A DNA stretch of 32,664 nt, from positions 1 to 32,664 of the IMG/VR virus record IMGVR_UViG_3300025380_000004, one strand, 5' to 3'. A program made the position numbers and the translations under genes. Below are positions 11,210 to 27,993 of the stretch, piece by piece. The first letter of the stretch is position 1. Each line of letters begins with the position of its first letter. The stretch is from a virus. The notes beneath the pieces are model-generated. The model was not told the origin of the DNA, ran no database searches, and was given only the letters and a program-made list of their open reading frames with translations.

Positions 11210-11722
11210 ATGAAAAAAAACAAAGATGAAGAGAAGATTCAATACACTAAAGAAGACATATTTATCTTTACGAAAACAAACTTTGAATATAGTAATGCAA
11301 AGATGCATCGTGAGGTTCGATTATTCTGCAGGACACTATGGTTCTGCCTAACAGTCAAAGAGCGGTTACGATTCATATTTACAGGTAACTATCGCAAATC
11401 TGTGATTAAAGCGTATGATGAGTTATTGTCGAAGAAAGATTTTGTTAATGAAGAAACTCTAATGCGTGAGATTGACCGATACTATGGAAGTGAGTTACGA
11501 GTTAGAATGATTACTTTATGCACAAACTTATTCTCTGAGATGTCACGTTTTTATAGGTTATTATTTGTAATTACAGGTATACATTATGTTCCATTGCAAC
11601 AAACTAATAAACGTATGGTAAAACAACAGCAGAAGAAACAGAAAAAACAACAGAAACGAGTTAATCGAATAATAGCAAAACAAAATAAAGAAATTGCCAA
11701 GAAGAAGAAAAATAGTGCATAA
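11210..11722 (+). CDS. Hypothetical protein with basic Q/K-rich tail
   Basis: 170 residues. I choose the ATG at 11210 (a second ATG at 11207 is too close to AGGAGG). Residues 1-135 are helical with aromatic and basic residues (RLFCRTLWFCLTVKERLRFIF could sit at a membrane). The last 40 residues are a repeat of K and Q (KQQQKKQKK), a charged tail. The stop TAA is part of GCATAA, the outer box of the hairpin at 11717. No family recognised. Confidence 0.7.
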   Translation: MKKNKDEEKIQYTKEDIFIFTKTNFEYSNAKMHREVRLFCRTLWFCLTVKERLRFIFTGNYRKSVIKAYDELLSKKDFVNEETLMREIDRYYGSELRVRMITLCTNLFSEMSRFYRLLFVITGIHYVPLQQTNKRMVKQQQKKQKKQQKRVNRIIAKQNKEIAKKKKNSA

Positions 11723-11798
11723 TGAGAGAGTGTGCGGCTTGATCGGAACGATCAAAGCTAAACACCTAATAAACCTAACGCTGACACCTATGTTATGC
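11717..11798 (+). repeat. attC-like site 1
   Basis: GCATAA (11717-11722, containing the upstream stop) pairs with TTATGC of GTTATGC (11792-11798). After an unpaired spacer, GTGT-g-C-g-GC pairs with GC-tG-ACAC, leaving bulged bases. The tip holds GATCG-GAA-CGATC. Its 82-nt size and R'-box GTTATGC followed by GTTG resemble the Vibrio cholerae repeat class of attC. It precedes the gene at 11837. Confidence 0.55.
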
Positions 11799-11829
11799 GT
11801 TGTAAAAAGTCCTGAATGGGCGAGGAGAA
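11740..11829 (+). repeat. 90-bp perfect direct repeat, copy 1
   Basis: Identical to 27484-27573 over 90 bases. It runs from inside the attC-like hairpin to the AGGAG ribosome-binding site of the next gene. The genes after the two copies are unrelated, while the segments after those genes are again similar (AAGCTCATTTA, GGCTTTTATT, CATAACTGC). Confidence 0.95.
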
Positions 11830-11836
11830 AGAAAAG

Positions 11837-12085
11837 ATGGAAAATTATGAATCTATGTTGCACGATGAACAAGTTGGAATATTGAACGGAATATTGGCAG
11901 ATGTAGTATTGTTGAAACTTAAAAACAAGGATAGTTCTCTAAAAATAACAAGAGGAGAAATATACAAGTTGAAACAACAATTACAAATTTTACCGAAATT
12001 AAGAAAAGCTTGTAATCATTATCCAGAAATAAAAAACAAAATAGTAATCCAATCAAAAAATCTTATGATCGGGATGTTAGACTAA
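11837..12085 (+). CDS. Cassette gene, small helical protein, unknown
   Basis: 82 residues, MENYESMLHDEQVGILNG and onward, with a Leu/Lys-rich middle. I use the ATG at 11837 because the AGGAG in the preceding repeat is the ribosome-binding site, as it is for the gene at 27577. The start context and 3' flank are shared with that gene but the proteins are unrelated, so it appears to be an exchangeable cassette. Unknown function. Confidence 0.65.
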   Translation: MENYESMLHDEQVGILNGILADVVLLKLKNKDSSLKITRGEIYKLKQQLQILPKLRKACNHYPEIKNKIVIQSKNLMIGMLD

Positions 12086-12110
12086 GCTCATTTATGGCTT
12101 TTATTTCGCA

Positions 12111-12141
12111 TAACTGCCAGTATGCTAGGCATAGGCTGTTA
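12111..12141 (+). repeat. attC-like site 2 (short form)
   Basis: TAAC-t-GCC-ag-TATGC / GCATA-GGC-t-GTTA. The outer box TAAC/GTTA, a mismatch, a GCC/GGC stem, an AG bulge and a TATGC stem are the same as in the sites at 17726 and 22125 but with a three-base tip. It is only 31 nt, shorter than classical attC. Confidence 0.5.
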
Positions 12142-12156
12142 TTAAGGATGGTTAAA

Positions 12157-12353
12157 ATGAAAATATCAACAGAAACAATTCTTAAAATTCTTGGGAACTT
12201 TACGTAAACTATGATGATGAATGGGAGATATCATCTATATGCCATTCACACAAAGAGTATAAAGCTAAAAGAAAATATGAATATCAAAAACAACTTTACC
12301 CGATTAAATGGGTAGAATGTAGAAAACCTAATCCAGAATATAAAGGAGTATAA
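12157..12353 (+). pseudogene. Small gene broken by a one-base frameshift
   Basis: From the ATG at 12157 the frame reads MKISTETILKILGNFT and hits TAA. Adding one A in the run AAAA at 12184-12187 gives a continuous 65-residue protein: MKISTETILK, then NSWELYVNYDDEWE, and an end with KWVECRKPNPEYKGV, stopping at 12351-12353 directly before the next ATG. The downstream frame has normal coding character. It is a recent frameshift or a sequencing error in a homopolymer. Function unknown. Confidence 0.7.
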
Positions 12354-13517
12354 ATGGGAAATAGAACATGGGCGTTTGAATTAAAAAGAAATGGATCTGT
12401 AGTAAAGGTTATCCAATGTAAAATGCAAAAATCACTTGCTAAATCTCTTACAAGTATGATTGCAAAACCGTTAAATATAGAACATCATGAACGTGAACTT
12501 TCAGGCATAATTGGATGTGAGGAAAGAACATCTAACTATCAAATAATGTTTGGTACTGTAGATGCAATTAGGAGTCCAGAAACTTATGATGAGAATTTAC
12601 ATAAATATCTTAATAGTTTTCCAGATGTTTTTACCGAAGAAAATTATAAACCTATAATCGAGTTAAGAGATGAATTTGTTGAAAAACATATATCCATTAA
12701 AGATAGTAGAAGAACACAAGATGAAGATAATAAACGCAACACGGAACTTAATGAGATTGCGGTTAAGAGAGAAGCAGAAGCAAAAATCAAAGCAGAAAAT
12801 AAAAAAACTGAAAATGAAAGATTAATTATAGAGTTCCCATATCTTGAAACAATACATAATACAAAAAAATCTCGTCATGCATTAGCATCTTCAAATATAA
12901 AAAGACAACTACAAATGAAATACCCAGGTGCAAAATTTTCTGTAAAATCTGATTCGTTCTCTATGGGAGATTCAGTTCATATAAGCTGGACTGATGGTCC
13001 GACTGAAAAAGAAGCATCTGATATTTACGATCCGTATCAATATGGACACTTTAATGGTATGATCGATATGTATGAATACACAGAAGATAATAATTGGACT
13101 ATTTTTGGAAGTTCTAAATATATATCTGGTAATAGGCATTTAACTAAAGAAGCTTATCTTAAAGCATCTGAAGCAACTGAAATAAAGATTACTTTTGATA
13201 AATGGGATGGCATGGATAGAAATATTATGAGTCAAGATCAAATTAGAAGAATTAGAATATGGCTTTGTGATAATTCTCTATATGTTAAACCAAAAGTAGA
13301 TCCTAAAAGCGAAACTTCCACGACACATAAAGAAGTAGGAGTTAGCAGAAACGAAGAGAAAGGCGGTATTGAAATTAGCTTTAATGGCAAACCTGCAATA
13401 AGTATCTTAGATCAATTAAAATCTAATGGTTGGAGATGGAGTAGATTTGGTAAAGTTTGGTGGAAGAAATTTACAGATGCAGATTGGCAATTTGCTAATA
13501 ACCTTATAGGAGGGTAG
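12354..13517 (+). CDS. LPD29-type polyvalent/antirestriction-associated protein
   Basis: 387 residues. The middle (about 170-245) has SNIKRQLQMKYPGAKFSV, then VHISWTDGPTEKE, the pattern of the large polyvalent-protein-associated domain LPD29, which occurs on phages and conjugative elements beside antirestriction proteins. The C-terminal part (GWRWSRFGKVWWKKF) matches a second domain found in such proteins. A Lys/Glu-rich coiled region lies at about 120-160. It may help the element evade or protect against host defences after entry; the exact reaction is unknown. It starts directly after the preceding stop. Confidence 0.7.
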   Translation: MGNRTWAFELKRNGSVVKVIQCKMQKSLAKSLTSMIAKPLNIEHHERELSGIIGCEERTSNYQIMFGTVDAIRSPETYDENLHKYLNSFPDVFTEENYKPIIELRDEFVEKHISIKDSRRTQDEDNKRNTELNEIAVKREAEAKIKAENKKTENERLIIEFPYLETIHNTKKSRHALASSNIKRQLQMKYPGAKFSVKSDSFSMGDSVHISWTDGPTEKEASDIYDPYQYGHFNGMIDMYEYTEDNNWTIFGSSKYISGNRHLTKEAYLKASEATEIKITFDKWDGMDRNIMSQDQIRRIRIWLCDNSLYVKPKVDPKSETSTTHKEVGVSRNEEKGGIEISFNGKPAISILDQLKSNGWRWSRFGKVWWKKFTDADWQFANNLIGG

Positions 13518-13748
13518 ATGGATAGACCAATTCCAACAGTAGATTTAAGTAGTAATCCTCATTTACTTGAAACTGTAGAAGCAAAAACTAATGAAGAAGT
13601 AGTTTGCTTTTGTAAACTATGTGGAAGATCTTATAAAGAAAGACCTTTCTTATGTAAATGCAGGTCAAATGTATTTTTAATAGACGGTAAGGTAATCGAT
13701 GGCAAATTCATAAGAGATATTGCAATTGAAAAGTTAAATGGAGGATAG
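13518..13748 (+). CDS. Small zinc-binding-like protein
   Basis: 76 residues starting next to the LPD29 gene's stop, with ATAGGAGGGTAG upstream. Cysteines in CFCKLCGRSY and LCKCRSN form two CxxC-like knuckles (residues 31-36 and 48-50), a likely zinc ribbon. The tail carries IDGKVIDGKFI. Function unknown; likely coupled to the LPD29 protein. Confidence 0.65.
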   Translation: MDRPIPTVDLSSNPHLLETVEAKTNEEVVCFCKLCGRSYKERPFLCKCRSNVFLIDGKVIDGKFIRDIAIEKLNGG

Positions 13749-13919
13749 ATGCATAAAGTAACAATTACGTTTTATAGTGATAAAAGTCCAAACGAAATTT
13801 CAGATACTTTAATTGATTTAGCAAACAGTGATTTAATACAATCAATTACACCCTGCAAAGATAAGAATAACAAAGAGATTAATACAATCAACTATTCTAT
13901 TGATAAGGAGGGAAAATGA
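13749..13919 (+). CDS. Small protein, 56 residues, unknown
   Basis: Starts behind GGAGGATAG and ends in a TGA that overlaps the ATG of the next gene (ATGA). MHKVTITFYSDKSPNEI and the rest look like a small alpha/beta protein. Unknown. Confidence 0.6.
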   Translation: MHKVTITFYSDKSPNEISDTLIDLANSDLIQSITPCKDKNNKEINTINYSIDKEGK

Positions 13920-14449
13920 CAGAAGAACCTAATAGTTTAAAAATTGTGCAAAGGATTTACGAAGAAGCTGAGATCGAACGAGAGTTTATCCTTACATTAG
14001 ATAAACTTTACTTTACTGTTACAAATCCAGTAGATGTTATATTTGAAGAGAAATATACAACACAATTTATTGTAGCTGACTATTTATTCGACTCAATGTT
14101 CTTAGAAAAGGAACTTACAGCTTACCTTATGGCAAGTGACCCTGAGTTAGCTGAATGGAATAGAAAACATCATCTAAGTTATCTTGAAGATGAGATGAAG
14201 TACTTTGTTGTCTATGAAGAAATGTTTAGTGCTGATGATTCTACAATGTTTAGCTGGTTAAAGAAAGCAAAATCTTCTGATGATATTGAAAAATATTATA
14301 CTGATTGCCACGAAATAGAATACTACAAAGAAGATGGAGATACTTTAGGATATGAAACTAATTGTGGTAATCAATTTGCAATAGAAAGCATACGTGAAAT
14401 TCCTAAATCACACTTTGATGTGTTAGCTAAATATTTAACAATCGTGTAG
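13916..14449 (+). CDS. Acidic protein, 177 residues, unknown
   Basis: Starts behind AAGGAGGGAAA and overlaps the previous stop. Strongly acidic, with clusters such as YKEDGDTLGYE and SADDSTMF. No membrane segment and no known motif. In the middle of the same run of small plus-strand genes. Confidence 0.65.
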   Translation: MTEEPNSLKIVQRIYEEAEIEREFILTLDKLYFTVTNPVDVIFEEKYTTQFIVADYLFDSMFLEKELTAYLMASDPELAEWNRKHHLSYLEDEMKYFVVYEEMFSADDSTMFSWLKKAKSSDDIEKYYTDCHEIEYYKEDGDTLGYETNCGNQFAIESIREIPKSHFDVLAKYLTIV

Positions 14450-14457
14450 GAGGAACA

Positions 14458-14733
14458 ATGACAAGAAAGAAAATATTAGAAAAACATCTTGGCAATATAC
14501 ATATCTCGGATATTACGCTTGAAAAGGTATTATCTGCTATGGCAGAAGTTGAAAATAAACTCAATATCGATTGTGATATGTTAGCGAAGCAGAAAGAATC
14601 TTTAGAAACAGCTATACTAATTTTTAAAGATAAATCGAAATATGAAAAACTTCATGAAGATCCTTTTATACAAGACTTAATTGGAATACTTCATCTAATT
14701 TATAACCTACAAGATAATAATTGTAAGATGTAA
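14458..14733 (+). CDS. Small helical protein, unknown
   Basis: 91 residues behind TAGGAGGAACA. MTRKKILEKHLGNIHISDI begins a helical, mixed-charge protein. Two bases before the next start. Unknown. Confidence 0.6.
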   Translation: MTRKKILEKHLGNIHISDITLEKVLSAMAEVENKLNIDCDMLAKQKESLETAILIFKDKSKYEKLHEDPFIQDLIGILHLIYNLQDNNCKM

Positions 14734-14734
14734 T

Positions 14735-15755: not shown

Positions 15756-16020
15756 GATGTTAAGACCATTATCACTAAACACACCATATGTAGGCAATCA
15801 GTTACTTGCTATGATAGATACAATGATAAAACCAGAGCAAATATCTGAAGATACGTATATTATTTTAGCAAAACAATGCGAACAGTATTTTACCACGATG
15901 CTAATAGATGAGAGGAAAGACATATTTGTGCTAACAAACATAGATAAGAAAATATTTGGGATTGCACCTATACGAAAGCAATTCTATGAAAGTATCATGG
16001 CAAGAAATATTTTACACTAA
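15748..16020 (+). CDS. Small protein, 90 residues, unknown
   Basis: Starts inside the end of the upstream gene behind AAAGGAAATAAAAA. MIEMLRPLSLNTPYVG and the rest are helical. The stop TAA is the first part of the TAAC box of the hairpin at 16018, so gene and hairpin form one unit. Confidence 0.65.
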   Translation: MIEMLRPLSLNTPYVGNQLLAMIDTMIKPEQISEDTYIILAKQCEQYFTTMLIDERKDIFVLTNIDKKIFGIAPIRKQFYESIMARNILH

Positions 16021-16057
16021 CGATAAGCACGCTACTAACAGCGATGTTGCAGTGTTA
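16018..16057 (+). repeat. attC-like site 3
   Basis: TAAC (stop codon plus C) pairs with GTTA at 16054-16057; after the spacer GATAA/AGT, GCA pairs with TGC, and an inner CGCT-actaac-AGCG hairpin forms the tip. Opens the chain of cassettes up to 22173. Confidence 0.5.
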
Positions 16058-16081
16058 TGTGTAGCTTATAAGGAGGATTTT

Positions 16082-16324
16082 ATGAAAGATAATTATTTTA
16101 ATACAGCTAATGGTGTAATCACAAAAAAAGAAGAAGAAAAGAAAGACCAGAAAGTCAGAGAACATATTGATAGTGTGTTGCCTGATGAAGAGTGTGTTTG
16201 GAAAAATGCAGGTGAATATTGGGCAACGGAATGTGATGGTGCATTCTATCTCGAAACAGGAACACCATCTGATAATAAAATGATATACTGCCCTTATTGC
16301 GGTAAAAGACTAAGTTACACATAA
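16082..16324 (+). CDS. Cassette gene with C-terminal zinc ribbon
   Basis: 80 residues behind AAGGAGGATTT. The start at 16082 is set by that site; a longer upstream frame would run through the attC-like hairpin. CVWKNAGEYWATEC and CPYCGKRLSYT supply four cysteines, a typical zinc ribbon of small phage proteins. Lys/Glu-rich before it. Function unknown. Confidence 0.7.
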   Translation: MKDNYFNTANGVITKKEEEKKDQKVREHIDSVLPDEECVWKNAGEYWATECDGAFYLETGTPSDNKMIYCPYCGKRLSYT

Positions 16325-16331
16325 TGTGCGG

Positions 16332-16366
16332 AGCTGTAACGATCCGTTAAGCGGACCGTTATAGCT
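16332..16366 (+). repeat. attC-like hairpin 4
   Basis: AGCT-g-TAACG-a-TCCG / CGGA-c-CGTTA-t-AGCT with a TTAAG loop. The TAAC/GTTA boxes lie within a longer stem, and the upstream stop is eight bases away instead of overlapping, so this is an atypical member. Confidence 0.45.
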
Positions 16367-16382: not shown

Positions 16383-16703
16383 ATGATAACTAAAAAAGAA
16401 TATAGATTAGCAATTGGAATTGTTAAACAGTATGAAAAAGAAAATATTCATACCTTCAATCGAGGTGGCTTTACTATAAAAGATTTGGAGATATTAGATT
16501 ATTCGATTAGTGTCAAAAAATTAACAGAAGATATATTCTCTGAGAATAACTGCCATGAATTATACAAGATTATAGTTGAGAGAATAGATGGTTGTAACTG
16601 GACAAATGTAGATGATGCTGGATACTTATCAATATCATTTAAGAAGCGCTTGATAACAGGTAAACAGATTGATGTAGTACTAAAATCACTAAATGAGCTA
16701 TAA
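16383..16703 (+). CDS. Cassette gene, 106 residues, unknown
   Basis: Starts behind GTGAGGGAAT. MITKKEYRLAIGIVKQYEK begins a helical, mixed-charge protein; the middle has a cysteine in NNCHELY and another in DGCNWTNV. The stop is the start of the TAAC box of the next hairpin. Unknown family. Confidence 0.65.
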   Translation: MITKKEYRLAIGIVKQYEKENIHTFNRGGFTIKDLEILDYSISVKKLTEDIFSENNCHELYKIIVERIDGCNWTNVDDAGYLSISFKKRLITGKQIDVVLKSLNEL

Positions 16704-16751
16704 CGTTCAGGTGTGCCATGTAGAACGAAGTGGCACATGGACATAGTGTTA
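16701..16751 (+). repeat. attC-like site 5
   Basis: TATAAC / GTTATA outer box (the TAA is the stop of the upstream gene), an unpaired spacer, then TGTGCCA / TGGCACA around a 12-base tip. The R'-like end GTTATACG is followed 10 bases on by GGAGG of the PAPS-reductase-like gene. Confidence 0.55.
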
Positions 16752-16768
16752 TACGAAATGGAGGAATT

Positions 16769-17512
16769 ATGACAAGAAAAAAAAGAACCATTGAAATGTT
16801 AAAAGCATTTGAACCAAAGAATGGTTATCACCTTGCATTCAGTGGTGGCAAAGATAGCCAAGTATTGTATCATCTTTGTGAAGAAGCTAATGTAAAATTT
16901 ACTGCATATTTCTGCCGAACATCAGTTGATCCACCAGAAGTAATTGAATTTATAAAAACAAATTATCCAAATGTAAAAATTTTAAGACCAAAATTAACAA
17001 TGTATCAAATTATATTGAAACATAAAGGATTACCAAGTAGAAATATAAGATATTGTTGTGGTGAATTAAAGGAATATGCAGGTTCTGGACAATTAGTAAT
17101 AACGGGTATTAGATCAGAAGAATCTAATGCGAGAGAAAATAGACCAGAAATTGAAATGGATAACCATAAAAATAAAATCAAATTATTATTTCATCCAATA
17201 AAAGATTGGTCTGAATTACAAATATGGGATTATCTTGATGGATTAGGGATATCTCCAAATCCACTTTATGATGAAGGATTTGGAAGAATTGGTTGCATTG
17301 GTTGCCCGATGGCAACAGCAAAAGCCAAATATATTGAGTTTCAAAAATATCCAAAACATAAAATGGCATACATAAAAACTATTGAAAAACTTATGCAAAT
17401 GGGAAAATATACTGACTTTGATGATGCAGAAGATGTATTTAATTGGTGGATTTCAGATATTCCAAAAGGTGAGTATATGGGGAATAAAAAACAATTAAAA
17501 TTGGAGTTTTAA
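16769..17512 (+). CDS. PAPS/APS-reductase-family enzyme with clamp-like tail
   Basis: 247 residues starting behind ATGGAGGAATT. SGGKDS (25-30) is the PP-loop that binds a nucleotide. Cys96-Cys97 and Cys176-x2-Cys179 match the CC...CxxC [4Fe-4S] ligands of APS reductases and of the DndC family used in DNA phosphorothioation. In phages this family is common but its substrate is mostly unknown; sulfur transfer to a nucleic acid is one option. The C-terminus is QLKLEF, the same clamp-like tail as on the methyltransferases, and the DNA around it (TTAAAATTGGAGTTTTAA) is also shared, which links this enzyme to DNA modification at the replication fork. This is inference. No dndD or dndE genes are nearby. 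Confidence 0.85.
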   Translation: MTRKKRTIEMLKAFEPKNGYHLAFSGGKDSQVLYHLCEEANVKFTAYFCRTSVDPPEVIEFIKTNYPNVKILRPKLTMYQIILKHKGLPSRNIRYCCGELKEYAGSGQLVITGIRSEESNARENRPEIEMDNHKNKIKLLFHPIKDWSELQIWDYLDGLGISPNPLYDEGFGRIGCIGCPMATAKAKYIEFQKYPKHKMAYIKTIEKLMQMGKYTDFDDAEDVFNWWISDIPKGEYMGNKKQLKLEF

Positions 17513-17521
17513 GGGGGAAAG

Positions 17522-17728
17522 ATGAGAGAAGAAACAAAGGTTAATTTACCAAAGGATAATCCATTCTGTAATAATTGTAAAGAAAAGCATTGTTGTGTTT
17601 CACTTGACGGCACTTGTGCTATGATAAGAGTTTATTTGAAATATTGCATAAAACAACTAAGCGGAGAAAAACAACTAAGATGTGGAGTTATATTTACTAA
17701 AGATTCAAATTATCGTGATTTTGCCTAA
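17522..17728 (+). CDS. Cys-rich protein beside the PAPS-reductase-like gene
   Basis: 68 residues behind AAGGGGGAAAG. FCNNCKEKHCCVSLDGTC and CIKQ, RCG add at least seven cysteines, a pattern seen in Fe-S or zinc proteins. It is directly downstream of the reductase with only a 9-base gap and may deliver electrons or sulfur to it; that is inference from position. The stop forms the TAAC box of the next hairpin. Confidence 0.65.
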   Translation: MREETKVNLPKDNPFCNNCKEKHCCVSLDGTCAMIRVYLKYCIKQLSGEKQLRCGVIFTKDSNYRDFA

Positions 17729-17774
17729 CTGCCAGTATGCTATGCGAGTGAAGCGTGGCATAGATAGGCTGTTA
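17726..17774 (+). repeat. attC-like site 6
   Basis: TAAC-t-GCC-ag-TAT-g-CTATGC / GCATAG-ATA-GGC-t-GTTA. The bulged AG and G lie on the same arm, as extrahelical bases do in attC. It differs by one base from the site at 22125 over about 50 bases. The stop of the upstream gene is its first triplet. Confidence 0.6.
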
Positions 17775-17797
17775 TACGAAAAAACATGGAGGTATTA

Positions 17798-18580
17798 TTG
17801 AAACTTAAAACAATAAATGACTTGATAGCATGGCAATTATCAAGTAGAACAGTTACATTAAAACTAATTTATGCAGATCTTTTTAAATCATACAATAAAG
17901 ATGGAAAACTAATAAAAAATGCAGATATTGTTGCTGGTTTATTATTATCTCAAATTATGTATTGGTTCATGCCAGGAGAAAATGGTAAATCTAAACTAAG
18001 AGTTGAAAGGAATGGCAGATTTTGGCTATGCAAATCACGTAAAGAATGGCATAATGAAATTCGTATATCATCACGTCAATATGACAGAGTTGCAAAGATA
18101 CTCGGACCAAGGACTAAATATAATCCACAAGGGCTAAATATAATAGACATTGAGACGTTCAAATTTGGTGGAACACCAAAGACACATATTGCCATTAATT
18201 TTGATGTATTGATGAATTTATTAAATATTGAATTATCTAAATACTCTACTCATACAAACACTTTTATAACTAAGAAATCTAAGATTCCAAATGTAGAGGT
18301 TAAAGATAAAGATGCGGTATGGGTTGAAAGTTATTTGGCAAAACAATCAGAAAAATACAGAGAAACATGGCAATATTTTCTTGACCATAGGCGTAGTCTT
18401 AAAAGTCCAATGACTAAACATGCTAAATATCTAATGTTATTTAAACTCGATAAAGTATTCCCTTGTAATTCAGAAGAGCATATCACAAGATTTAACAACT
18501 CAATTACTAATGGATGGAAAGGCGTACTGTTTGCGAATGAACTTAAAAAATTAAATGATCGATTAGGAGAGGGATTTTAA
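17798..18580 (+). CDS. DnaD-like replication protein (probable initiator or loader partner)
   Basis: 260 residues. I take the TTG at 17798 because GGAGG lies just in front; the ATG at 17786 is part of that site. Residues about 35-50 (GLLLSQIMYWF) and WLCKSRKEWHNEI, ISSRQYDRV match the winged-helix N-terminal domain of phage and plasmid replication proteins. The C-terminus (NGWKGVLF) is the tail motif of DnaD-type proteins. The last residues, DRLGEGF, match those of the HTH protein at 8240. It probably works with the helicase loader at 19070. Confidence 0.75.
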   Translation: MKLKTINDLIAWQLSSRTVTLKLIYADLFKSYNKDGKLIKNADIVAGLLLSQIMYWFMPGENGKSKLRVERNGRFWLCKSRKEWHNEIRISSRQYDRVAKILGPRTKYNPQGLNIIDIETFKFGGTPKTHIAINFDVLMNLLNIELSKYSTHTNTFITKKSKIPNVEVKDKDAVWVESYLAKQSEKYRETWQYFLDHRRSLKSPMTKHAKYLMLFKLDKVFPCNSEEHITRFNNSITNGWKGVLFANELKKLNDRLGEGF

Positions 18581-18581
18581 A

Positions 18582-18935
18582 ATGATTGAAGATAAACTAT
18601 TAGTAAAGAATCTATTCACAATAATAACAGCGTATAGAGAACAGATATTACGTCTTTGTTCTGAAACTGGATGTTATTTACTAAATGATTTTCAAGCAGG
18701 ATGTAATGAATGTCCATTGAAAGATGATAAGGATTTTGATAAGGCTATTGAACTTATTAAAGCATCGTGGGATGGAAAGAATAAGATAGACTATGCTGTA
18801 TATTGGAGTCTGTTATCTGAAAAAGAAAGGAAGAGAATATTAAAAGCTAATTCGCTTGAAGAACGGTTAAGTGTATTTGACTTTAAATATCTTCCACAAA
18901 CCGCAAGAGAAATGCTTAATAAATTGGAGGAATAA
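18582..18935 (+). CDS. Hypothetical protein in the replication operon
   Basis: 117 residues, starting one base after the previous stop, with GGAGAGGGA as a distant ribosome-binding site. Cysteines occur in LCSETGCY and AGCNECPLKD. The N-terminal half is helical. It sits between the DnaD-like gene and the loader and is likely expressed with them. No family recognised. Confidence 0.65.
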   Translation: MIEDKLLVKNLFTIITAYREQILRLCSETGCYLLNDFQAGCNECPLKDDKDFDKAIELIKASWDGKNKIDYAVYWSLLSEKERKRILKANSLEERLSVFDFKYLPQTAREMLNKLEE

Positions 18936-19060
18936 TGAAAGAGAAACCAATTGACATTGATAAACTCGGTGAGAAAATGCGTGAACGTGACCGTAATGAA
19001 ATTCCAGTAAAACCAAACGGATATCGTGGAGCTGGTGAACATAAATACGAAGGAGATTAA
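18935..19060 (+). CDS. 41-residue small protein ahead of the helicase loader
   Basis: Overlaps the preceding stop with TTGGAGGAATA upstream. It reads MKEKPIDIDKLGEKMRERD and ends with GYRGAGEHKYEGD. Charged and probably disordered. Directly before the loader gene. Function unknown. Confidence 0.6.
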   Translation: MKEKPIDIDKLGEKMRERDRNEIPVKPNGYRGAGEHKYEGD

Positions 19061-19069
19061 GGAGATTTA

Positions 19070-19888
19070 ATGGATAAAATATTACCTAAAGAAACTGCGA
19101 GTATTTGGAAAAAAGCTGCTGAAACCCTGCCTAAAGATGAATGGATATGTGACATCTGCCACGAAGTAAATACAAACTGGATGCCTAATATGTCATTAAT
19201 ATTAAGGGAAAGTAAAATAGAATTCCATCGTGGAATGTGTGAAAATTGTAGGAGGTTAAAAGATGAAAAAATAATTAAAGAAGAAAATGCCATGAAGCTG
19301 GAAGATAAAAAAAGAAAAATCCAAAAGCTTTTAGCATCGTCACAAATACCACCGAAAGTTGCTGACTCTACATTTGATAAACTTGAAATAAGAAAAGGTG
19401 CAGAGAAAACATTTAAAACAATGAAGCGTTTAGAAAATGCTGATAGGTGGATTTATGTTTCAGGAACAAACAATACAGGAAAGACTTTATTAATTGGAGC
19501 GACAATAAATGATCTGTCCAGTAAAAATATTCCGTGTTATTATTTCAATGAGAGATCTCTATTCCGTAGATTCAAAGATGCTATGGATACTAAGAACAAC
19601 GAATCTTCATATTCGATAATGAGAGAACTCAAATCTGCAGAGATAATATTTTGGGATGACTTCTCAATCTTTGCTTACTCTCCATGGGAAGCAGGCATGG
19701 CATACGATCTATTAGAATTCTTTGATACTTACTATAAGAAAATTGTATTCTTCTCTAACTTTAACCTTGAAGATACATTAAAAGAAAATGCTAATAATGT
19801 AGAAACTAGAATAGGTAAACGACCATTAGCTCGGATGCAAAAAAATAAAACTCATTATATTCACATGGATAATGAACCATTTAAGTAA
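19070..19888 (+). CDS. DnaC-like helicase-loader ATPase
   Basis: 272 residues. An N-terminal CDIC...CENC pair (residues 27-60) is a zinc motif often found on phage DnaC-type loaders. Walker A is GTNNTGKT (132-139), Walker B is IIFWDDF (191-197) and a sensor-1 segment FFSNFNLED follows. The protein would use ATP to place the replicative helicase on origin DNA. It starts behind AAGGAGATTTA and is followed by the annealase gene after a 67-base gap. Confidence 0.85.
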   Translation: MDKILPKETASIWKKAAETLPKDEWICDICHEVNTNWMPNMSLILRESKIEFHRGMCENCRRLKDEKIIKEENAMKLEDKKRKIQKLLASSQIPPKVADSTFDKLEIRKGAEKTFKTMKRLENADRWIYVSGTNNTGKTLLIGATINDLSSKNIPCYYFNERSLFRRFKDAMDTKNNESSYSIMRELKSAEIIFWDDFSIFAYSPWEAGMAYDLLEFFDTYYKKIVFFSNFNLEDTLKENANNVETRIGKRPLARMQKNKTHYIHMDNEPFK

Positions 19889-19955
19889 AATAAATTGACA
19901 ATATAATTTGTAATACAAAAATTGACATAGTAATATACTATAAACAGGAGGGTTT

Positions 19956-21260
19956 ATGGAAGTAAAAACATTCAAAGATATTTGGAAAAAATTAATTGAT
20001 ATTGATGTAACTCCATTCACTAAGAAAAAAAAATCTGATGGTAAGGAGTATGGATATATTCCGTGGGCTGTTGCATGGGGAGAGTTAGTAAAAATATATC
20101 CTGATTCTACTTATAAAGTCCATGTTGATACTGATGGATTCCCATGTTTCTATAAAGATGGCATCGGGGCATTTTGTAGAACATCAGTAACAATTGAAGG
20201 ATATACTCGTACAATGGACTTACCAGTTCTTAATTTTGCAAATAAGGCTATGAAAATTGAATCTTATTCTTATACTGTTAATAAATATGTTGATGGTAGA
20301 AAGCAAGGTACTATTGATAAAAACGTTGGAGCTATTAATTCCTTTGATGTCAACACGACTAAATGGCGTTGCCTAGTTAAAAATCTAGCTATGTTTGGAT
20401 TTGGCATTAAGCTATTTGCTAATTCTGATTGGGAAACTCAAACAGATGATGACGGAGTTGCACCTTGGGCTGATGAAAGATTAAAAAAGATTGGTGGAAA
20501 AGGTAAACATGCAGAAAAAACATGGGCTGAGGTTGCAGTTAGTCAGATATATTGGTATATTGATCCTGCTAATTCTAAATATACAAGACGACTTGCTCCA
20601 TTAGCACAAAGAGAACTAGACTTCCGTTCTAATATGGCTGATGATAATGCAGATGTTCTTAAAGATAAAACAGACCCATTACACAATATGAGGCTTGATA
20701 TTCAGGCAAAGGCTGATGATATTCTAAAGGAAAGATACAAACAAACTATCCAATATGATTTCTATACAGATGCAATTGCCAAAGCAAAAACAAACGAAGA
20801 TCTAATTATTATATCTGCTAGAATTGATACAATAGATATTCTTGTAACTGTATTTAATAATGACGAGATAGATGCTGAAGAATTTAAAATCTACCTATTG
20901 AAAATATCTACTTCTGCAAATGGAGAACTTCAAAATTTAAGTATTAAGCTAAAAACATTATCCCCAGAAGCATCTAAGAATAGAGATTTACTAGAGCATT
21001 ATTGGAATGAAATAACGACTCTATTTAAAGAGCTTGGCTATGAACACAATGCTAGCTTATCTATTAATTCAATGAAGAAAAATCTAGGTAGTGAAGACAT
21101 GTATTCAATACTTGATGTCAAGAAACTAGAGAAATATGAAGAACATTTAAGAAAGAAACTTAAAGATATAAATAAAACAACAAAGGATAAACACCTTAAT
21201 AATAAAGTGGAAACACTAGAACCAGAGAATAATGGCAACAAAGTTGTTATTGGAGAATAA
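19956..21260 (+). CDS. DUF1071-type single-strand annealing protein
   Basis: 434 residues. The first 180 or so match DUF1071 (Sak3-like): YGYIPWAVAWGELVKIYPDSTYKV, a middle with GYTRTMDLPVLNFANKAMK and WRCLVKNLAMFGFGIKLF. DUF1071 proteins are phage recombinases that pair complementary single strands in Rad52-like reactions. The C-terminal 200 residues are helical, charged and not conserved. AACAGGAGGGTTT sits in front. It lies within the replication block, and its stop forms the TAAC box of the hairpin at 21258. Confidence 0.85.
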   Translation: MEVKTFKDIWKKLIDIDVTPFTKKKKSDGKEYGYIPWAVAWGELVKIYPDSTYKVHVDTDGFPCFYKDGIGAFCRTSVTIEGYTRTMDLPVLNFANKAMKIESYSYTVNKYVDGRKQGTIDKNVGAINSFDVNTTKWRCLVKNLAMFGFGIKLFANSDWETQTDDDGVAPWADERLKKIGGKGKHAEKTWAEVAVSQIYWYIDPANSKYTRRLAPLAQRELDFRSNMADDNADVLKDKTDPLHNMRLDIQAKADDILKERYKQTIQYDFYTDAIAKAKTNEDLIIISARIDTIDILVTVFNNDEIDAEEFKIYLLKISTSANGELQNLSIKLKTLSPEASKNRDLLEHYWNEITTLFKELGYEHNASLSINSMKKNLGSEDMYSILDVKKLEKYEEHLRKKLKDINKTTKDKHLNNKVETLEPENNGNKVVIGE

Positions 21261-21295
21261 CGAGAAGCACACCACGTTCTGTGGGTGCAGTGTTA
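21258..21295 (+). repeat. attC-like site 7
   Basis: TAAC-spacer-GCAC-a-CCAC-gttct-GTGG-GTGC-spacer-GTTA. The bulged A in the inner stem is placed like an extrahelical base. The stop codon of the annealase gene is its first triplet. Confidence 0.6.
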
Positions 21296-21331
21296 TGCAC
21301 AGTTCTTACAAAAAAAAATAAGGAGAAAAAG

Positions 21332-21520
21332 ATGGAAAAGCCAAAAAAATTAGAAGACAAACATTTGATGTTTTTAGATGTTCTCAGGGAATCAGGAGTT
21401 ACAAATATGTTTGGTGGTGGAAGTTATTTAAGAGAAGAATATCCAGACTTATCAAAACAGGAATCATATCAGATATTATCATATTGGATGGAAACATTTG
21501 AAGAAAGACATTATGTATAA
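21332..21520 (+). CDS. Cassette gene, 62 residues, unknown
   Basis: Starts at 21332 behind AAGGAGAAAAAG. MEKPKKLEDKHLMFLDVLR begins a helical protein with GGGSYL and SYWMETFEE. A single-gene cassette between two hairpins. Unknown. Confidence 0.65.
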   Translation: MEKPKKLEDKHLMFLDVLRESGVTNMFGGGSYLREEYPDLSKQESYQILSYWMETFEERHYV

Positions 21521-21580
21521 CGTGGGAGTAATGCCACCAAGCACCCCTTCTTGCTGTTCTAACTGTGGATTACTTTGTTA
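21518..21580 (+). repeat. attC-like site 8 (most complete)
   Basis: TAAC (the upstream stop) pairs with GTTA at 21577-21580. An unpaired spacer (GTGGG against TT) follows; then AGTAAT-g-CCAC pairs with GTGG-ATTACT, leaving one bulged G; the variable tip contains CAAG / CTTG. Outer box, unpaired spacer, inner box with an extrahelical base and a variable tip are the four parts of an attC site. Confidence 0.65.
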
Positions 21581-21613
21581 TACGTTGTTATTTATAGGGT
21601 TATGAAATGTTAA

Positions 21614-21656: not shown

Positions 21657-21824
21657 ATGAAAACAGAGTTTGTTAAAAAAGTGAAGTTTTATTGTGATAA
21701 ATTTAGCATTGATTATCCAGACTTTACAGATTATGAATCTATTAAAAAAGTAGCAGATAAAATAAATAACAAACACAATGATGAACAATGTAAAAAAGAA
21801 ATGGCAAGAATTTATGGTAAATAA
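21657..21824 (+). CDS. Cassette gene, 55 residues, unknown
   Basis: Starts behind AAAGGAGAAGAA. Begins MKTEFVKKVKFYCDKFSID and ends EMARIYGK; helical and basic. One-gene cassette. Unknown. Confidence 0.6.
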   Translation: MKTEFVKKVKFYCDKFSIDYPDFTDYESIKKVADKINNKHNDEQCKKEMARIYGK

Positions 21825-21831
21825 TAGCGAA

Positions 21832-21867
21832 TAACGGCTGTATGCGGTGCATGGCATATAGCCGTTA
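21832..21867 (+). repeat. attC-like site 9 (perfect short hairpin)
   Basis: ATAACGGCT-g-TATGC / GCATA-t-AGCCGTTAT, a stem almost without bulges. The TAAC/GTTA boxes are kept but the unpaired spacer is not, so it could equally be a simple RNA hairpin. Confidence 0.45.
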
Positions 21868-21919
21868 TATTTCGTGTTTGTCAGAATGAAATGATAAAAA
21901 TAAAACAAAGGAGAAAAAG

Positions 21920-22114
21920 ATGAAGGCTTTACAAGGAATGTTGACTGGGTGGAGTATTTATAACATAATAATACTTTTAATATGCATAGCCAATATAATA
22001 ATACAAATCAGGATAGGAATCATTGAAGAAAACTGGAACATTTCTGCAATATGTGGGTGGACTGGTGCTACAATAGCTTATATACAATTGATTTGGTTCA
22101 CTAATTTTTTATAA
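21920..22114 (+). CDS. Cassette gene, small two-span membrane protein
   Basis: 64 residues behind AAAGGAGAAAAAG. Two hydrophobic stretches: SIYNIIILLICIANIIIQI (about 12-30) and a C-terminal ATIAYIQLIWF. A small integral membrane protein carried on its own cassette; role unknown. Confidence 0.65.
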   Translation: MKALQGMLTGWSIYNIIILLICIANIIIQIRIGIIEENWNISAICGWTGATIAYIQLIWFTNFL

Positions 22115-22124
22115 ATATGCGACA

Positions 22125-22173
22125 TAACTGCCAGTATGCTATGCAAGTGAAGCGTGGCATAGATAGGCTGTTA
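22125..22173 (+). repeat. attC-like site 10, near-twin of site 6
   Basis: Same sequence as 17726-17774 except for one base in the tip (A for G). TAAC-t-GCC, bulged AG and G, CTATGC / GCATAG, GGC-t-GTTA. Near-identity between non-adjacent sites 4.4 kb apart fits a family of copies. Confidence 0.6.
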
Positions 22174-22210
22174 TGCAAAGATAAATCAAAATTACTAGGA
22201 GGTAATTAAA

Positions 22211-22675: not shown

Positions 22676-22683
22676 TTAATTAA

Positions 22684-23179: not shown

Positions 23180-23190
23180 TTGGAGGTGTA

Positions 23191-23936: not shown

Positions 23937-25250
23937 ATGGAATATAAAGCAGCAGAATTAACACTAGTAAATTTCAAAGGTTCAACAAAGCTAAAGATTA
24001 AATTCAATGGCAATGTAACTTTTTTAATAGGAGTGAATGGATCTGGAAAAACAATGATTGGTACGGCATTCCAATATTTGTTTGAGGGTAAAACATTCTT
24101 TAATAACAAATACCGTAGAAGAATGATTACTGATGGGGAAGATAAACTCAAGGTTATTGGTGAGTTTACAAATGAAGAAACTGGTAAATCATTTAAAATT
24201 ACAAGGACTTTAACCTCGAATGATAGTCCTAATCTTAAAGTTGAGTGTGATGATAATGACTCTCTTGACATGAAAGAGATTCTCTCTATGATTAATATGC
24301 TTTATCTTAGACCGTTTGAGATAGTTAAAATGACACCGCAAGAACAGGCAAAACTTGTTGGAGTTGATACAACGGATTATGATAAGAAGATTAAAGAAAA
24401 GAAATCTAATTTAACCGTGCCACGATCTGATTTAAAAAGAGTAAAAGAGCAACTAAAAGCATTCTTGCATATACCAGAAAAGGTAGTTGCTGTAAATCTT
24501 AAAGATCTTTACGAGGAACGTGAAAATATTAAGCTGTTTAATGAAGAGCAACTTAATAGGAATAGTGAAATTACATCACAAACATTCAGAGTACAAGAGC
24601 AAGAACGTAAAATTAAAAAACTCGAAGAAGAATTACAGTTTGAAAAAAATGCTCTTGCAACAAAGAATGGAATTCTTGAATCATTAGTTAAACCAGAGCC
24701 TACACAATCTCTTGATAATGTTAATTCAAGAATAGATAGTGCTGATAATACAAACCTTAATGCTAGAACATTTGATAAATATGTTAGCCTTAAATCAGAA
24801 CTTGCAATTGAAGAAACTACATTTGCTACTAAAGAGCAAGAAGTTAAAGATGCTGAACAGAACAAGATTGATTACATTAAATCAACTAAGGTAGATTCTA
24901 GTGTTACATTCGATGAAAACGGAGGATTAAGGTTAACAGCATTTGGTCACACCGAAGCATATCTAAACGAAGCATTCTTTTCAACAGGGCAGATACTTAA
25001 ACTTTCAATCCAATTCTGTCTAATCAAAATGCTTAAAGATCGTGCTAATAATCTTCCAACAATACCTGTAATATTTGTAGATAATGCAGAGGGATTAGAT
25101 AAGAAAAACCTAGAGTATATTGATAAGATTAGTAAAGAGTACAACATTCAATTTATACTTGGCTATCAAGATGATAAGCCACAAGATGGGAAAAATTGTA
25201 TAATGCTCAGTGAACAATCAATTACAAAAATAACAAAGGAGGGAAAGTGA
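23937..25250 (+). CDS. SMC/Rad50/RecF-like ATPase
   Basis: 437 residues. The N-terminus (LVNFKGSTKLKIKFNGN, Walker A GVNGSGKT at 32-39) and the C-terminal Walker B region (VIFVDNAEGLD, about 377-387) frame a coiled-coil (about 175-290). This is the Rad50/SbcC/RecF head layout, shortened as usual in phages. The second acidic residue of Walker B is displaced (DNAE instead of DE). It likely works with the nuclease at 25645 in DNA end processing or repair. Its stop overlaps the next start (GTGA). Confidence 0.85.
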   Translation: MEYKAAELTLVNFKGSTKLKIKFNGNVTFLIGVNGSGKTMIGTAFQYLFEGKTFFNNKYRRRMITDGEDKLKVIGEFTNEETGKSFKITRTLTSNDSPNLKVECDDNDSLDMKEILSMINMLYLRPFEIVKMTPQEQAKLVGVDTTDYDKKIKEKKSNLTVPRSDLKRVKEQLKAFLHIPEKVVAVNLKDLYEERENIKLFNEEQLNRNSEITSQTFRVQEQERKIKKLEEELQFEKNALATKNGILESLVKPEPTQSLDNVNSRIDSADNTNLNARTFDKYVSLKSELAIEETTFATKEQEVKDAEQNKIDYIKSTKVDSSVTFDENGGLRLTAFGHTEAYLNEAFFSTGQILKLSIQFCLIKMLKDRANNLPTIPVIFVDNAEGLDKKNLEYIDKISKEYNIQFILGYQDDKPQDGKNCIMLSEQSITKITKEGK

Positions 25251-25645
25251 TTAATTTGGTTAAGCAGTACAACCTAACAAGCATTCAAAAACATCTTATT
25301 AACTGCGTGAAGAAAGAGGACAAACGTAAACGCATTATGGCACAATTAAAAGCCATTATGAAAAAGGAAGACATCTATCTTGGACATGATGGAGTAAAAG
25401 AAGTACGAGTTGTTATAGGTAGACATCTTGCGTATTCCAGATGTTGCCCGACAGATATCTTTGATGTAAGTCGTGGAGTTGCTATGTGTATTTGTGAAAT
25501 TCTTAATGAGAAAACTGAAAAAAGAATTAAGATCAGTAATGTATATACTAATTTATCCCAAATGCCATATTTTAGTAAATTCCCATCATCAGTATCGGGA
25601 GATTTTATCCTTAATAAAAAATATAATAAGTATCAGGAGGAATAA
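25247..25645 (+). CDS. Hypothetical protein between ATPase and nuclease
   Basis: 132 residues starting at a GTG that overlaps the ATPase stop, with GGAGGGAAA upstream. Basic N-terminal half (KKEDKRKRIMAQLKAIMKK) and a C-terminal half with RCCPTDIFDV and CICEIL. Its position suggests a DNA-recombination role but no motif supports this. Confidence 0.6.
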   Translation: MINLVKQYNLTSIQKHLINCVKKEDKRKRIMAQLKAIMKKEDIYLGHDGVKEVRVVIGRHLAYSRCCPTDIFDVSRGVAMCICEILNEKTEKRIKISNVYTNLSQMPYFSKFPSSVSGDFILNKKYNKYQEE

Positions 25646-26565
25646 TGGCAGATAAAAAAGTAGAAAGAGGCGGATTTTATGTTGTATTCAATGCAGAAAC
25701 AGGACCAGATATTGCCACAGCACGAATTGCAGATGCGGCAGACCCAAAGAAAGTACCTTTCGTTCCAGCATTGAAAACTTTCGAGCAATACTATGCGGAG
25801 CTAAAAGAGAAAGAGTACGTAAAAATTGCCAAGTTCAAGGGCGAAGATACACAGGAAAGAAAGAAAGCAGAGTTCAAAGCATTAGATCATAAAACTGGAT
25901 ATCAAACATTACTTGATGATTATAACAAGAAACTCCAAATGCTTGCAGTTCATCCACCATTTGCGTATATTAAAATTGCCACGATGGTTATAAACTCTGA
26001 TGATAAACGTGAAGTTAAAATTTGGAAGAACGAAAATAATGATCCAGTTATTGAAGCTAAAATTATTAGGGAAGTCGTTGAGATTTTATATTCAACTAAT
26101 CATGGTAATGATAGCTTTAATTCTCATGCAACAGTTACGTTTAATGGAAAGAGGTTTGATATTCCATTACTTTCTGAACGTGGACAGATTCGTGGCGTTA
26201 GAAATATCCCATACGATTTCCTTGAACGATTAATGAGTAGAGGAAGTAGGGAAAATCATCACGATATGATTGAGAATAGACCTTACCAAAATACTGTTGT
26301 TAATAAACTATCTCTTACACGGAACTTAGCAATTAGATTTGGAATTGATTGTGCCAAGGTGCAAATTGATTATGCAAAATGTTCAATCGAAGAGTTAAAA
26401 TATTACTCTCTTGATCAAGTATTAAAGCTGGAATATTGGTATCGCTTCCACCATGGATTAGAAATACCAACAGTAAAGGAATTCTTAGCTACATTACCAA
26501 ATCAAAATAAAGCTGAACCAAAAGAAATTCCAAATATTGAACCAAGAAAGTTACCAGAACTATAA
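25645..26565 (+). CDS. DEDD-type 3'-5' exonuclease with altered motif I
   Basis: 306 residues behind CAGGAGGAATA. Motif II (TFNGKRFDIPLL, about 165-176) and motif III (YYSLDQVL, about 252-259) are those of DnaQ-like or PolB-type exonucleases. Motif I reads FNAETG (about 15-20): the first catalytic Asp is Asn, while the Glu remains. The family uses four acidic residues for two metal ions, so this change may lower or alter activity. The RecF-like ATPase neighbour suggests a nuclease-ATPase pair. N-terminal sequence between motifs I and II is long, an insertion typical of phage members. Confidence 0.75.
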   Translation: MADKKVERGGFYVVFNAETGPDIATARIADAADPKKVPFVPALKTFEQYYAELKEKEYVKIAKFKGEDTQERKKAEFKALDHKTGYQTLLDDYNKKLQMLAVHPPFAYIKIATMVINSDDKREVKIWKNENNDPVIEAKIIREVVEILYSTNHGNDSFNSHATVTFNGKRFDIPLLSERGQIRGVRNIPYDFLERLMSRGSRENHHDMIENRPYQNTVVNKLSLTRNLAIRFGIDCAKVQIDYAKCSIEELKYYSLDQVLKLEYWYRFHHGLEIPTVKEFLATLPNQNKAEPKEIPNIEPRKLPEL

Positions 26566-26573
26566 TGATTATA

Positions 26574-26646
26574 TTCTCATGATACGAGAAAATACATAGG
26601 TCGGGTGGAAGGAACGAAAGTGACCGATAGAAAGCTCGACCTTATT
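26574..26646 (+). promoter_or_regulatory. Two hairpins ahead of the ASCH gene
   Basis: TTCTC / GAGAA (26574-26590) and AGGTCG / CGACCT (26598-26642), the latter with an inner GGT/ACC helix and followed by TATTT. The second could end transcription from the nuclease gene or act as a structured leader; it lies 13 bases before the ribosome-binding site at 26652. Confidence 0.45.
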
Positions 26647-26659
26647 TAACGGAGGAAGT

Positions 26660-26959
26660 ATGAAAAAAACATTACATTTAATTGTTCATAAGAGATGGTT
26701 TGATTTAATTAAATCAGGAGAAAAAACAGAAGAGTATCGTGAGATTACTAAATATTGGAGAAAAAGATTATGTGATAAAGAAAATAAAATGAAACACTTT
26801 GATACTATTACATTTTCCAATGGATATTCTAAGAATAGACCGCAATTTGAAATAGAGTTATTGGGTGCTTATGCAGGAGAAGGTTCTGAAAGTTGGGGAG
26901 CTATACTTGGTAAAACCTATTATGTATTTGAATTAGGTAAAATTATAAAGGAGAAATGA
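26660..26959 (+). CDS. ASCH-domain protein
   Basis: 99 residues behind ACGGAGGAAGT. HLIVHKRWFDLIKSGEKTEEYRE at 6-28 and TITFSNGYSK; FEIELLGA are the ASCH fold signature (PUA-like). ASCH proteins bind RNA or act on modified nucleosides; in phages they are small and of unknown target. Ends in TGA overlapping the next start. Confidence 0.75.
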   Translation: MKKTLHLIVHKRWFDLIKSGEKTEEYREITKYWRKRLCDKENKMKHFDTITFSNGYSKNRPQFEIELLGAYAGEGSESWGAILGKTYYVFELGKIIKEK

Positions 26960-27465
26960 TGCAGATTTTTGAACATGATAATAGAAAGTATTTATCTATC
27001 AGGGGACATCACTTCCATATACTAAATGGCTTTGGTAGTGGAGATTTTATACAATGCACTACAATGTCATCAAGTGGCATAATTAAAGATTATCTCCCTC
27101 AAGGATATGAGTTATCCAAGAGCAGGTATAACGGACAGATGATATTTACTATCTATAAGAAGAACTTATTTAATTATAAATCTAAATCTAAATCATTGGG
27201 TACTTTATTATTCATAGCATTATCAGAAGATGGTGCGAAGTATTTATTCTATAGATGGCTACTAAATGAGCAAATTGGCATGGATGATACACCTGAAAAT
27301 ATTGCAATAGTTAAAGAAGTTTTTGCAGATGAGCGTAGACAACTTGAACGATTTGTAGATACAGTTAAAAATCAAAACATGAAAGCTGTTTCTATAAATA
27401 TGAATGATTATGGTATAACATATGCAATTAAAACTATTATTAAAAAAATTGGGATGATTGCATAA
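26956..27465 (+). CDS. Hypothetical protein, 169 residues
   Basis: Starts at 26956 or 26959 (ATGATG) behind AAAGGAGAA. Begins MMQIFEHDNRKYLSIRG, with a helical second half (FADERRQLERFVD). The stop TAA is part of GCATAA of the hairpin at 27460. Unknown. Confidence 0.65.
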   Translation: MMQIFEHDNRKYLSIRGHHFHILNGFGSGDFIQCTTMSSSGIIKDYLPQGYELSKSRYNGQMIFTIYKKNLFNYKSKSKSLGTLLFIALSEDGAKYLFYRWLLNEQIGMDDTPENIAIVKEVFADERRQLERFVDTVKNQNMKAVSINMNDYGITYAIKTIIKKIGMIA

Positions 27466-27542
27466 TCTGAAAGGTATACGGCGTGATCGGAACGATCAAA
27501 GCTAAACACCTAATAAACCTAACGCTGACACCTATGTTATGC
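27460..27542 (+). repeat. attC-like site 11 (twin of site 1)
   Basis: GCATAA (27460-27465, including the upstream stop) pairs with TTATGC of GTTATGC (27536-27542). The 5' arm differs from site 1 while the 3' part is identical, as expected if cassettes exchange at the R' end. 83 nt. Confidence 0.55.
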
Positions 27543-27573
27543 GTTGTAAAAAGTCCTGAATGGGCGAGGAGAA
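27484..27573 (+). repeat. 90-bp perfect direct repeat, copy 2
   Basis: Identical to 11740-11829. It includes GATCG-GAA-CGATC, GTTATGCG and GCGAGGAG, the ribosome-binding site of the gene at 27577. Confidence 0.95.
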
Positions 27574-27576
27574 CAA

Positions 27577-27927
27577 ATGAGAGTAATCTACAGGAATCAT
27601 CCAGATGAAGAAAAGTTTGAACAACTAATCAGAAAAACCTATGGAGATGGTCGTCTCATCGATCATATAGAGTTAACGAATTGTGAAATATACAATATTG
27701 GATCACATAAGTTTAGGAGACGTAAAATTTCTAATGGGATTTATTCTACTGTATATCAAGGAATCCCAATAAAGATTGTTGGAGAACATGCTAATAATAA
27801 ATGTAAAGAAATTGAACAATTAATGATATTGTCTAACAGAATTGTGCAGGATCATAAAGATAAAAAATCTTTAGATTATTCAAGGTCACTAAACAGAATA
27901 ATCAAAAGTTTGAGGAACATATTCTAA
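27577..27927 (+). CDS. Cassette gene, 116 residues, unknown
   Basis: Starts six bases after AGGAG of the repeat. MRVIYRNHPDEEKFEQLIR and YQGIPIKIVGEHANN look like a compact alpha/beta fold. Unrelated to the protein at 11837 though both share 5' and 3' flanks. It is followed by AAGCTCATTTA...GGCTTTTATT and the hairpin at 27953. Confidence 0.65.
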   Translation: MRVIYRNHPDEEKFEQLIRKTYGDGRLIDHIELTNCEIYNIGSHKFRRRKISNGIYSTVYQGIPIKIVGEHANNKCKEIEQLMILSNRIVQDHKDKKSLDYSRSLNRIIKSLRNIF

Positions 27928-27952
27928 GCTCATTTAGGGCTTTTATTACACA

Positions 27953-27993
27953 TAACTGCTGGTATGCCATAATATTTCGTGGATTAGCTGTTA
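27953..27993 (+). repeat. attC-like site 12
   Basis: TAAC-t-GCT / AGC-t-GTTA outer part, inner CCA / TGG with uneven bulges (GGTAT against ATT). Related to the site at 12111 (both begin CATAACTGC). GTTATACG ends it, followed by the start region of the helicase gene. Confidence 0.5.

Follow-up and report, generated by a model that had tools for sequence, protein, structure and literature searches.

A probable integrase-less cluster of integron-type attC sites in a phage contig, and exchange of site-bounded units among related phages

The DNA analysed here (the window) is the whole of IMG/VR virus record IMGVR_UViG_3300025380_000004, a fragment of 32,664 bases. Between 11717 and 27996 it carries twelve hairpins at the 3' ends of genes, every one on the coding strand, at 11720, 12111, 16018, 16322, 16701, 17726, 21258, 21518, 21832, 22125, 27463 and 27953. 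They probably form a CALIN, an attC cluster of the integron type that lacks an integrase, here carried by a phage. Comparison with related contigs shows that site-bounded units have been swapped among phages. Mobility of the units is partly demonstrated; movement by an integron integrase is not supported. An earlier note on this DNA had read the hairpins as turning a phage-like region into gene cassettes, moved by an integron integrase or a related recombinase. That reading is partly supported: the attC-like anatomy, a polarity shared with known attCs, the mostly single-gene array and the site-bounded exchange are upheld, and the integrase-driven movement is not.

A scan for single-stem TAAC...GTTA hairpins found 11 in the window, compared to a mean of 2.29 (maximum 7) in 100 shuffles; 12 other box pairs gave 1-7 hairpins each in the same scan. 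Matches at 5921 and 14703 were treated as chance. The remaining TAAC matches, together with three sites whose left box is TAAT (11720, 16322 and 27463), make up the final twelve, all of which are imperfect inverted repeats (TAAY...GTTA) of the kind defined for attCs by R'' AAC and R' GTT. All the hairpins listed in the earlier note do hold a stem-loop, and their unpaired spacer, bulged base and variable tip had been described correctly. Its TAAC...GTTA outer boxes apply to most sites, the TAAT sites being the exceptions, and its statement that the hairpins usually start in the upstream stop codon is exact for eight of the twelve, where the left box (R'') supplies that codon with its TAA.

A strict rule was used to separate attCs from any hairpin. 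It demands paired outer boxes, a spacer that is unpaired and asymmetric, 3-5 bp, a one-base bulge in the 5' (R''-L'') arm, at least 4 bp more, a spacer, and GTTA. Seven sites match (11720, 16322, 16701, 17726, 21258, 21518 and 22125), ie the extrahelical base on the R''-L'' arm and the unpaired central spacer of attCs are present in 7 of 12. The shuffled window gave a mean of 0.32 matches (maximum 4, 300 shuffles) and the reverse strand of the window gave none. Two matches, one of them overlapping, were obtained with the opposite bulge polarity. The same rule accepted 8 of 10 class 1 cassette attCs from plasmid records (the references being aadA, dfrA, catB and aac(6')-Ib attCs, plasmid loci L026-L033), all in the polarity of the window sites. 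Seven matches were found on both strands of 493 kb of other phage DNA, and four of these are known or likely attCs: two consecutive sites of TJE1, the methyltransferase-flanking site of P12002L and one site of the related phage G2. We infer that the TJE1 coordinates matched are those tested with IntI1.

Folded as single-stranded DNA, ten sites beat their shuffles, with z from -1.85 to -5.6. The other two hardly stand out from theirs, with z 0.13 for 16018 and z -1.29 for 27953; site 21832 is a palindrome paired along its whole length. The L box pairs vary between sites (GTGT/ACAC, GCAC/GTGC, TAT/ATA, GTAAT/ATTAC, GCT/AGC) with complementarity and bulge kept. In aligned pieces trimmed by hand, 93% of L stem cells were paired, compared to at most 48% when slid, and the covariation score was 0.51 against 0.23 (0 of 500 shuffles). 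In the right box GTTA is invariant, the seventh base is Y in most sites and the fifth is T, not R.

Exchange was followed in a comparison set made up of the window (W), G1 (L018/L019, 70.8 kb), L035 and G2 (overlapping by 112 identical bases and treated together as L035/G2), G3/L034 and L017. The patterns of site 1 and site 5 (Table 1) found no additional contigs in IMG/VR, and most contigs matching the first site pattern were rejected as chance matches in a different context. Within IMG/VR, a search with the helicase-methylase protein found no relatives and one with the helicase loader found L017 only. Isolated phages gave only distant protein matches (for two of the window's larger proteins the best were below 50% identity, none close), and site matches in them were not meaningful. 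A comparable array, with the same site types, occupies the minus strand of G1 (3637, 3072, 2208, 1908 and 1317), its sites lying a few small genes apart with degenerate ones in between.

Three shared blocks carry the evidence for exchange. Block A, common to W and L034/G3, is 21830-22146 in the window, 99% identical, and comprises site 21832, the gene that follows it and the left portion of the site after that. Around it the upstream genes are unrelated; downstream, W has a DNA-metabolism block and L034 a lysozyme module. Block B is a methyltransferase unit, approximately 99% identical in G1 and L035/G2, bounded by the left edge of site 1908 and the right edge of site 1317; outside it these two have only short scraps in common. 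Block C is the 3' part of the 16082-16324 gene, common to G3 and W up to CACATAA, beyond which the sites differ. The earlier note had held that a fixed gene order with hairpins conserved in place would point to RNA elements. Neighbours change at the hairpins, which argues against a purely conserved RNA element. It had also counted the replication block (17786-21260) among the cassettes that had moved. No movement of that block was seen: in L017, the sole relative having it, the block is intact, 99.7% identical and unchanged in order.

If IntI were the agent, block edges should fall at G^TT of R' and each attC should travel with the gene upstream of it. Four edges, the left ones of A and B and the right ones of A and C, fall at the left box (between TAA and Y) or at a stop codon. 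For the right edge of B, at GTTAT, the true position is ambiguous, because many of these phages share that 49-bp site type; on its left, C ends within a gene. The edges coincide with stop codons, the pattern of ordinary phage mosaicism, and homologous or annealing recombination at sites and stop codons accounts for them no less well than IntI cleavage does.

Several results weigh against the CALIN reading. At least four of the five usable edges are at the left box, not G^TT of R', an indirect test of the recombination point, as past exchange may not be integrase action. The bulge is absent in five of the twelve sites, and the right box is GTTATRY instead of GTTRRRY. Our own class 1 covariance model gave nothing significant in the window (best E 0.41), a weak test as the model penalises long variable tips and hence misses many of its own training sites, those with long tips. 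Searches for tyrosine, serine and Y1 recombinases (PF00589/Phage_integrase, TIGR02249, PF13102, Resolvase, Y1_Tnp) gave nothing in the eight contigs, all of them possibly incomplete, and two site-pattern scans of GTDB species genomes gave no matches and no host integron. Gene-boundary mosaicism also occurs with no hairpin, eg the gene at window 31587-32539 is cleanly absent from G1. As the earlier note had stated, there is no IntI gene in the window: the searches with TIGR02249 and Phage_integrase were empty. The intI gene of a complete integron is missing from this record, which is a fragment, and the integron-type recombinase that the note wished to see sought elsewhere was not found in the related contigs. 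The Y1 transposase of IS200/IS605-type hairpin elements (PF01797), which could act in trans, is likewise absent from the eight contigs.

The strongest competing explanation, which we place a little short of an even chance, is that the sites are now repeated linkers, the swaps arising by homologous or annealing (Sak) recombination and template switching at short common sequences and gene ends, with no site-specific recombinase. A Sak-like annealing protein is encoded in the window and in L017, and hybrid sites with damaged pairing occur (27463; L017 4507; 16701 compared to G1 3637). The edges at left boxes and stop codons, the lack of a recombinase in the contigs, and the similar hairpin-free swaps at the shared gene end AATTGGAGTTTTAA and around 31587-32539 also favour it. 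However, it leaves unexplained the attC anatomy with one fixed bulge polarity, and the fact that in several units two sites flank precisely one small gene.

A second explanation inverts the working polarity. The cut, made by a tyrosine recombinase, would fall at TAA^Y of the left box on the coding strand, and the moving unit would be a site with its downstream gene. The shared segments do span the left edge of a site and the downstream gene to the next left box (W and L034/G3; the left edge in L035 and G1). In many sites a G follows the left box, and on the cleaved strand of most attCs G follows the AAC of the cleaved box (PMC2727003). Inverting the extrahelical bases is known to shift recombination to R'' (Bouvier et al. 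2009, PMC2727003). There are, however, three independent comparisons only, their left edges coincide with stop codons, and the bulge polarity predicts cleavage at the right box. The GTT there never changes, unlike the left box (TAAC/TAAT). An inverted polarity would be compatible with the edges as well, yet both the bulge and the constant GTT favour the right box; on balance we regard inversion as unlikely. Polarity read from neighbouring bases (TAACA/CGTTA or TAACG/TGTTA) was discarded as ambiguous because TGTTA also occurs in a TJE1 site. A related proposal, a phage-adapted relative of integrons in which attC-like single-strand sites are cut on the coding strand at TAA^Y and a phage group swaps small genes, each as site plus downstream gene, through a putative recombinase, seems to us rather improbable.

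RNA elements or transcription terminators with no tie to recombination would account for the location of all sites at 3' ends and for their stem-loops, and 21832 is terminator-like. A scan for intrinsic terminators (GC-rich stem and T run) found a T-rich tail at 21832 only among the sites, Rfam gave no match at E up to 1 over 11600-28050, ie no known structured RNA, and neighbours change at the sites, which makes this explanation very unlikely. L017 joins W-type to L034-type DNA through segment A (317 bp) and may be a true recombinant or a chimera; it was rejected as independent evidence, its junctions being both ends of the segment common to the window and L034/G3. That the inter-contig junctions are assembly chimeras at repeated hairpins, as L017 might suggest, has little probability, given that two contigs, one from each of two metagenome datasets, carry the L034 arrangement (99.7% over 5.4 kb), that the site repeats are mostly about 50 bp, and that at several edges two site types differ.

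We return to the CALIN. If the sites are attCs, twelve of them lie in 16 kb with neither TIGR02249 nor PF00589, as a CALIN requires. The small genes would probably have been gained as cassettes, each with an attC at its 3' end and with IntI supplied in trans by a host. Today the sites separate mostly single genes and serve as common junctions for unit swaps between co-circulating phages. The left-box edges, the hybrid sites and the lack of a recombinase suggest that recent exchange may be homologous or annealing, via sites of integron ancestry. The sites and the units between them are given in Table 1.

Table 1. Hairpin sites and gene units of the window. The bulged base is in square brackets; z refers to the fold; "strict" marks a match to the strict rule.
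Feature	Position	Strand	Description
attC-like site 1	11717..11798	+	GCATAAT - GAGAGA - GTGT[G]CGGC - long variable tip - GCTGACAC - CTAT - GTTATGC; strict; z -3.0; stop of upstream reading frame is TAA of left box
Single-gene unit	11816..12085	+	89 aa; no family match
attC-like site 2	12108..12144	+	Short tip; TAAC TGCCAG TATGC TAG GCATA GGCT GTTA; no bulge; z -2.3
attC-like site 3	16015..16060	+	Weak fold, z 0.13; stop codon is TAA of left box
Single-gene unit	16082..16324	+	80 aa, zinc-ribbon-like; 3' 141 bp common to G3/L024 (97%), ending at CACATAA
attC-like site 4	16319..16364	+	TAAT...GCT[G]TAACG / CGTTAAGC...GTTA; strict; z -2.6
Single-gene unit	16383..16703	+	106 aa; no family match
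attC-like site 5	16698..16754	+	GTGT[G]CCATGT / ACATGGACAT; strict; inner half common to G1 at 3580-3626
Two-gene unit	16769..17728	+	PAPS-reductase-like gene (ATG 16769, end 17512) and 68-aa gene (17522-17728)
attC-like site 6	17723..17777	+	TAT[G]CTATGC / GCATAGATA; strict; same 49-51 bp in G1, G2, G4, L017
Replication/recombination block	17786..21260	+	O-/DnaD-like replication protein, small reading frames, DnaC-like helicase loader, Sak-like annealing protein
attC-like site 7	21255..21298	+	TAAC GAGAA GCAC[A]CCAC gttct GTGG GTGC AGT GTTA; strict; z -2.2
Single-gene unit	21332..21520	+	62 aa; no family match
attC-like site 8	21515..21583	+	GTAAT[G]CCAC / GTGGATTAC, long tip; strict; z -2.7
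Single-gene unit	21657..21824	+	55 aa; L034/G3 carry an unrelated 73-aa gene in its place
Site 9	21829..21870	+	Fully paired palindrome TAACGGCTGTATGC...GCATATAGCCGTTA, no bulge; z -5.6; left edge of segment shared with L034/G3
Single-gene unit	21920..22114	+	64 aa, membrane-like; L034/G3 and L017 have it at 99% identity
attC-like site 10	22122..22176	+	Family of site 6; strict; other site type in L017/L034 from CATAAC on
Site 11 (hybrid)	27460..27544	+	Identical to site 1 in right half, tip and downstream leader; left half differs, complementarity lost
Single-gene unit	27577..27927	+	116 aa; no family match
Site 12	27950..27996	+	TAACTGCTGGTATGCCA...GTTATAC; weak fold, z -1.3

Seven units hold exactly one small gene; the remaining units hold two genes, several (the replication block) or many. 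The mechanical call of the PAPS-reductase-like reading frame begins at 16730, inside site 5, and the 68-aa gene beside it has relatives in G3. The window also encodes a helicase-methyltransferase. Two units have a leader and site half (11735-11834 and 27483-27573) and a 3' trailer (12082-12125 and 27924-27967) in common; no similarity was detected between their genes, of 89 and 116 aa.

A second kind of junction, with no hairpin, was seen at the gene end AATTGGAGTTTTAA (KLEF stop), located at window 105, 2450, 17500 and 32530, G1 36640 and G3 9930. It follows methyltransferases and the PAPS-reductase gene, and the phages are also spliced there. The gene at 31587-32539, missing as a whole from G1 with clean edges, encodes an N6/N4-type methyltransferase whose frame is broken shortly after the SPPY motif. 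A perfect 119-bp inverted repeat (window 1-119 and 2444-2562), its left copy at the contig end, encloses two methyltransferase genes and is either an invertible segment or an assembly fold-back. A tmRNA gene is present at 9977-10328 (Rfam RF00023, 79 bits); ARAGORN makes no call. In G1 a promoter-like repeat, AACTTGACAAAA...TATAGTAATGTAAGT, has six copies upstream of genes, at about 50-150, 3880-4010, 4930-5040, 12500-12640, 13590-13720 and 25130-25260. L017 (5360-5414), L034 (4912-4966), G3 (422-476) and G1 (9827-9889) conserve an inverted repeat around TTTGCACGATAACAT...GTGCAAA that may serve as an operator or origin.

CALINs in phages have been reported once before, from single genomes (TJE1, PH101, P12002L and MW202573; Qi et al. 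2023, PMC9892861), and the kind is thus already known. As here, attCs lie between phage genes, no phage integrase is present, and methyltransferase genes are among the cassettes; a site of TJE1 passes the strict rule with the same layout, ie a stop codon in R'' and a left-arm bulge. The attCs of Tetrasphaera phage TJE1 were recombined by IntI1 (PMC9892861). We saw no account in that paper of cassettes shared between phages. By comparison, there are here twelve sites in 16 kb, and at least five related phage contigs have the same site families, with units in common, so that cassette exchange among phages becomes directly testable. The edges carry a warning: as they miss the textbook cleavage point, attC anatomy alone is no proof of integrase-driven movement.

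Class 1 attCs share with these sites the R''/R' boxes, the extrahelical base on the R''-L'' arm, the variable tip and the stop codon in R'', the TAA of R'' being the upstream stop codon in several class 1 cassettes too. They differ in that R' is here GTTATRY and the AAC of R'' is often AAT (a G-T wobble), the spacers are about 6/4 rather than 5/5-6, and the base before GTT is T, not C. Ordinary phage gene-boundary mosaicism likewise shows whole-gene exchange, edges at stop codons and an encoded annealing protein, but the boundaries here bear attC-like hairpins of fixed polarity. The right box of the Vibrio cholerae repeats (VCR) is GTTATGC, as in site 1. In that superintegron, too, extrahelical bases on one arm set the strand (PMC2727003), although no integrase platform accompanies the present array, and the left-box edges resemble the R'' recombination of VCR mutants with inverted extrahelical bases rather than that of the wild type.

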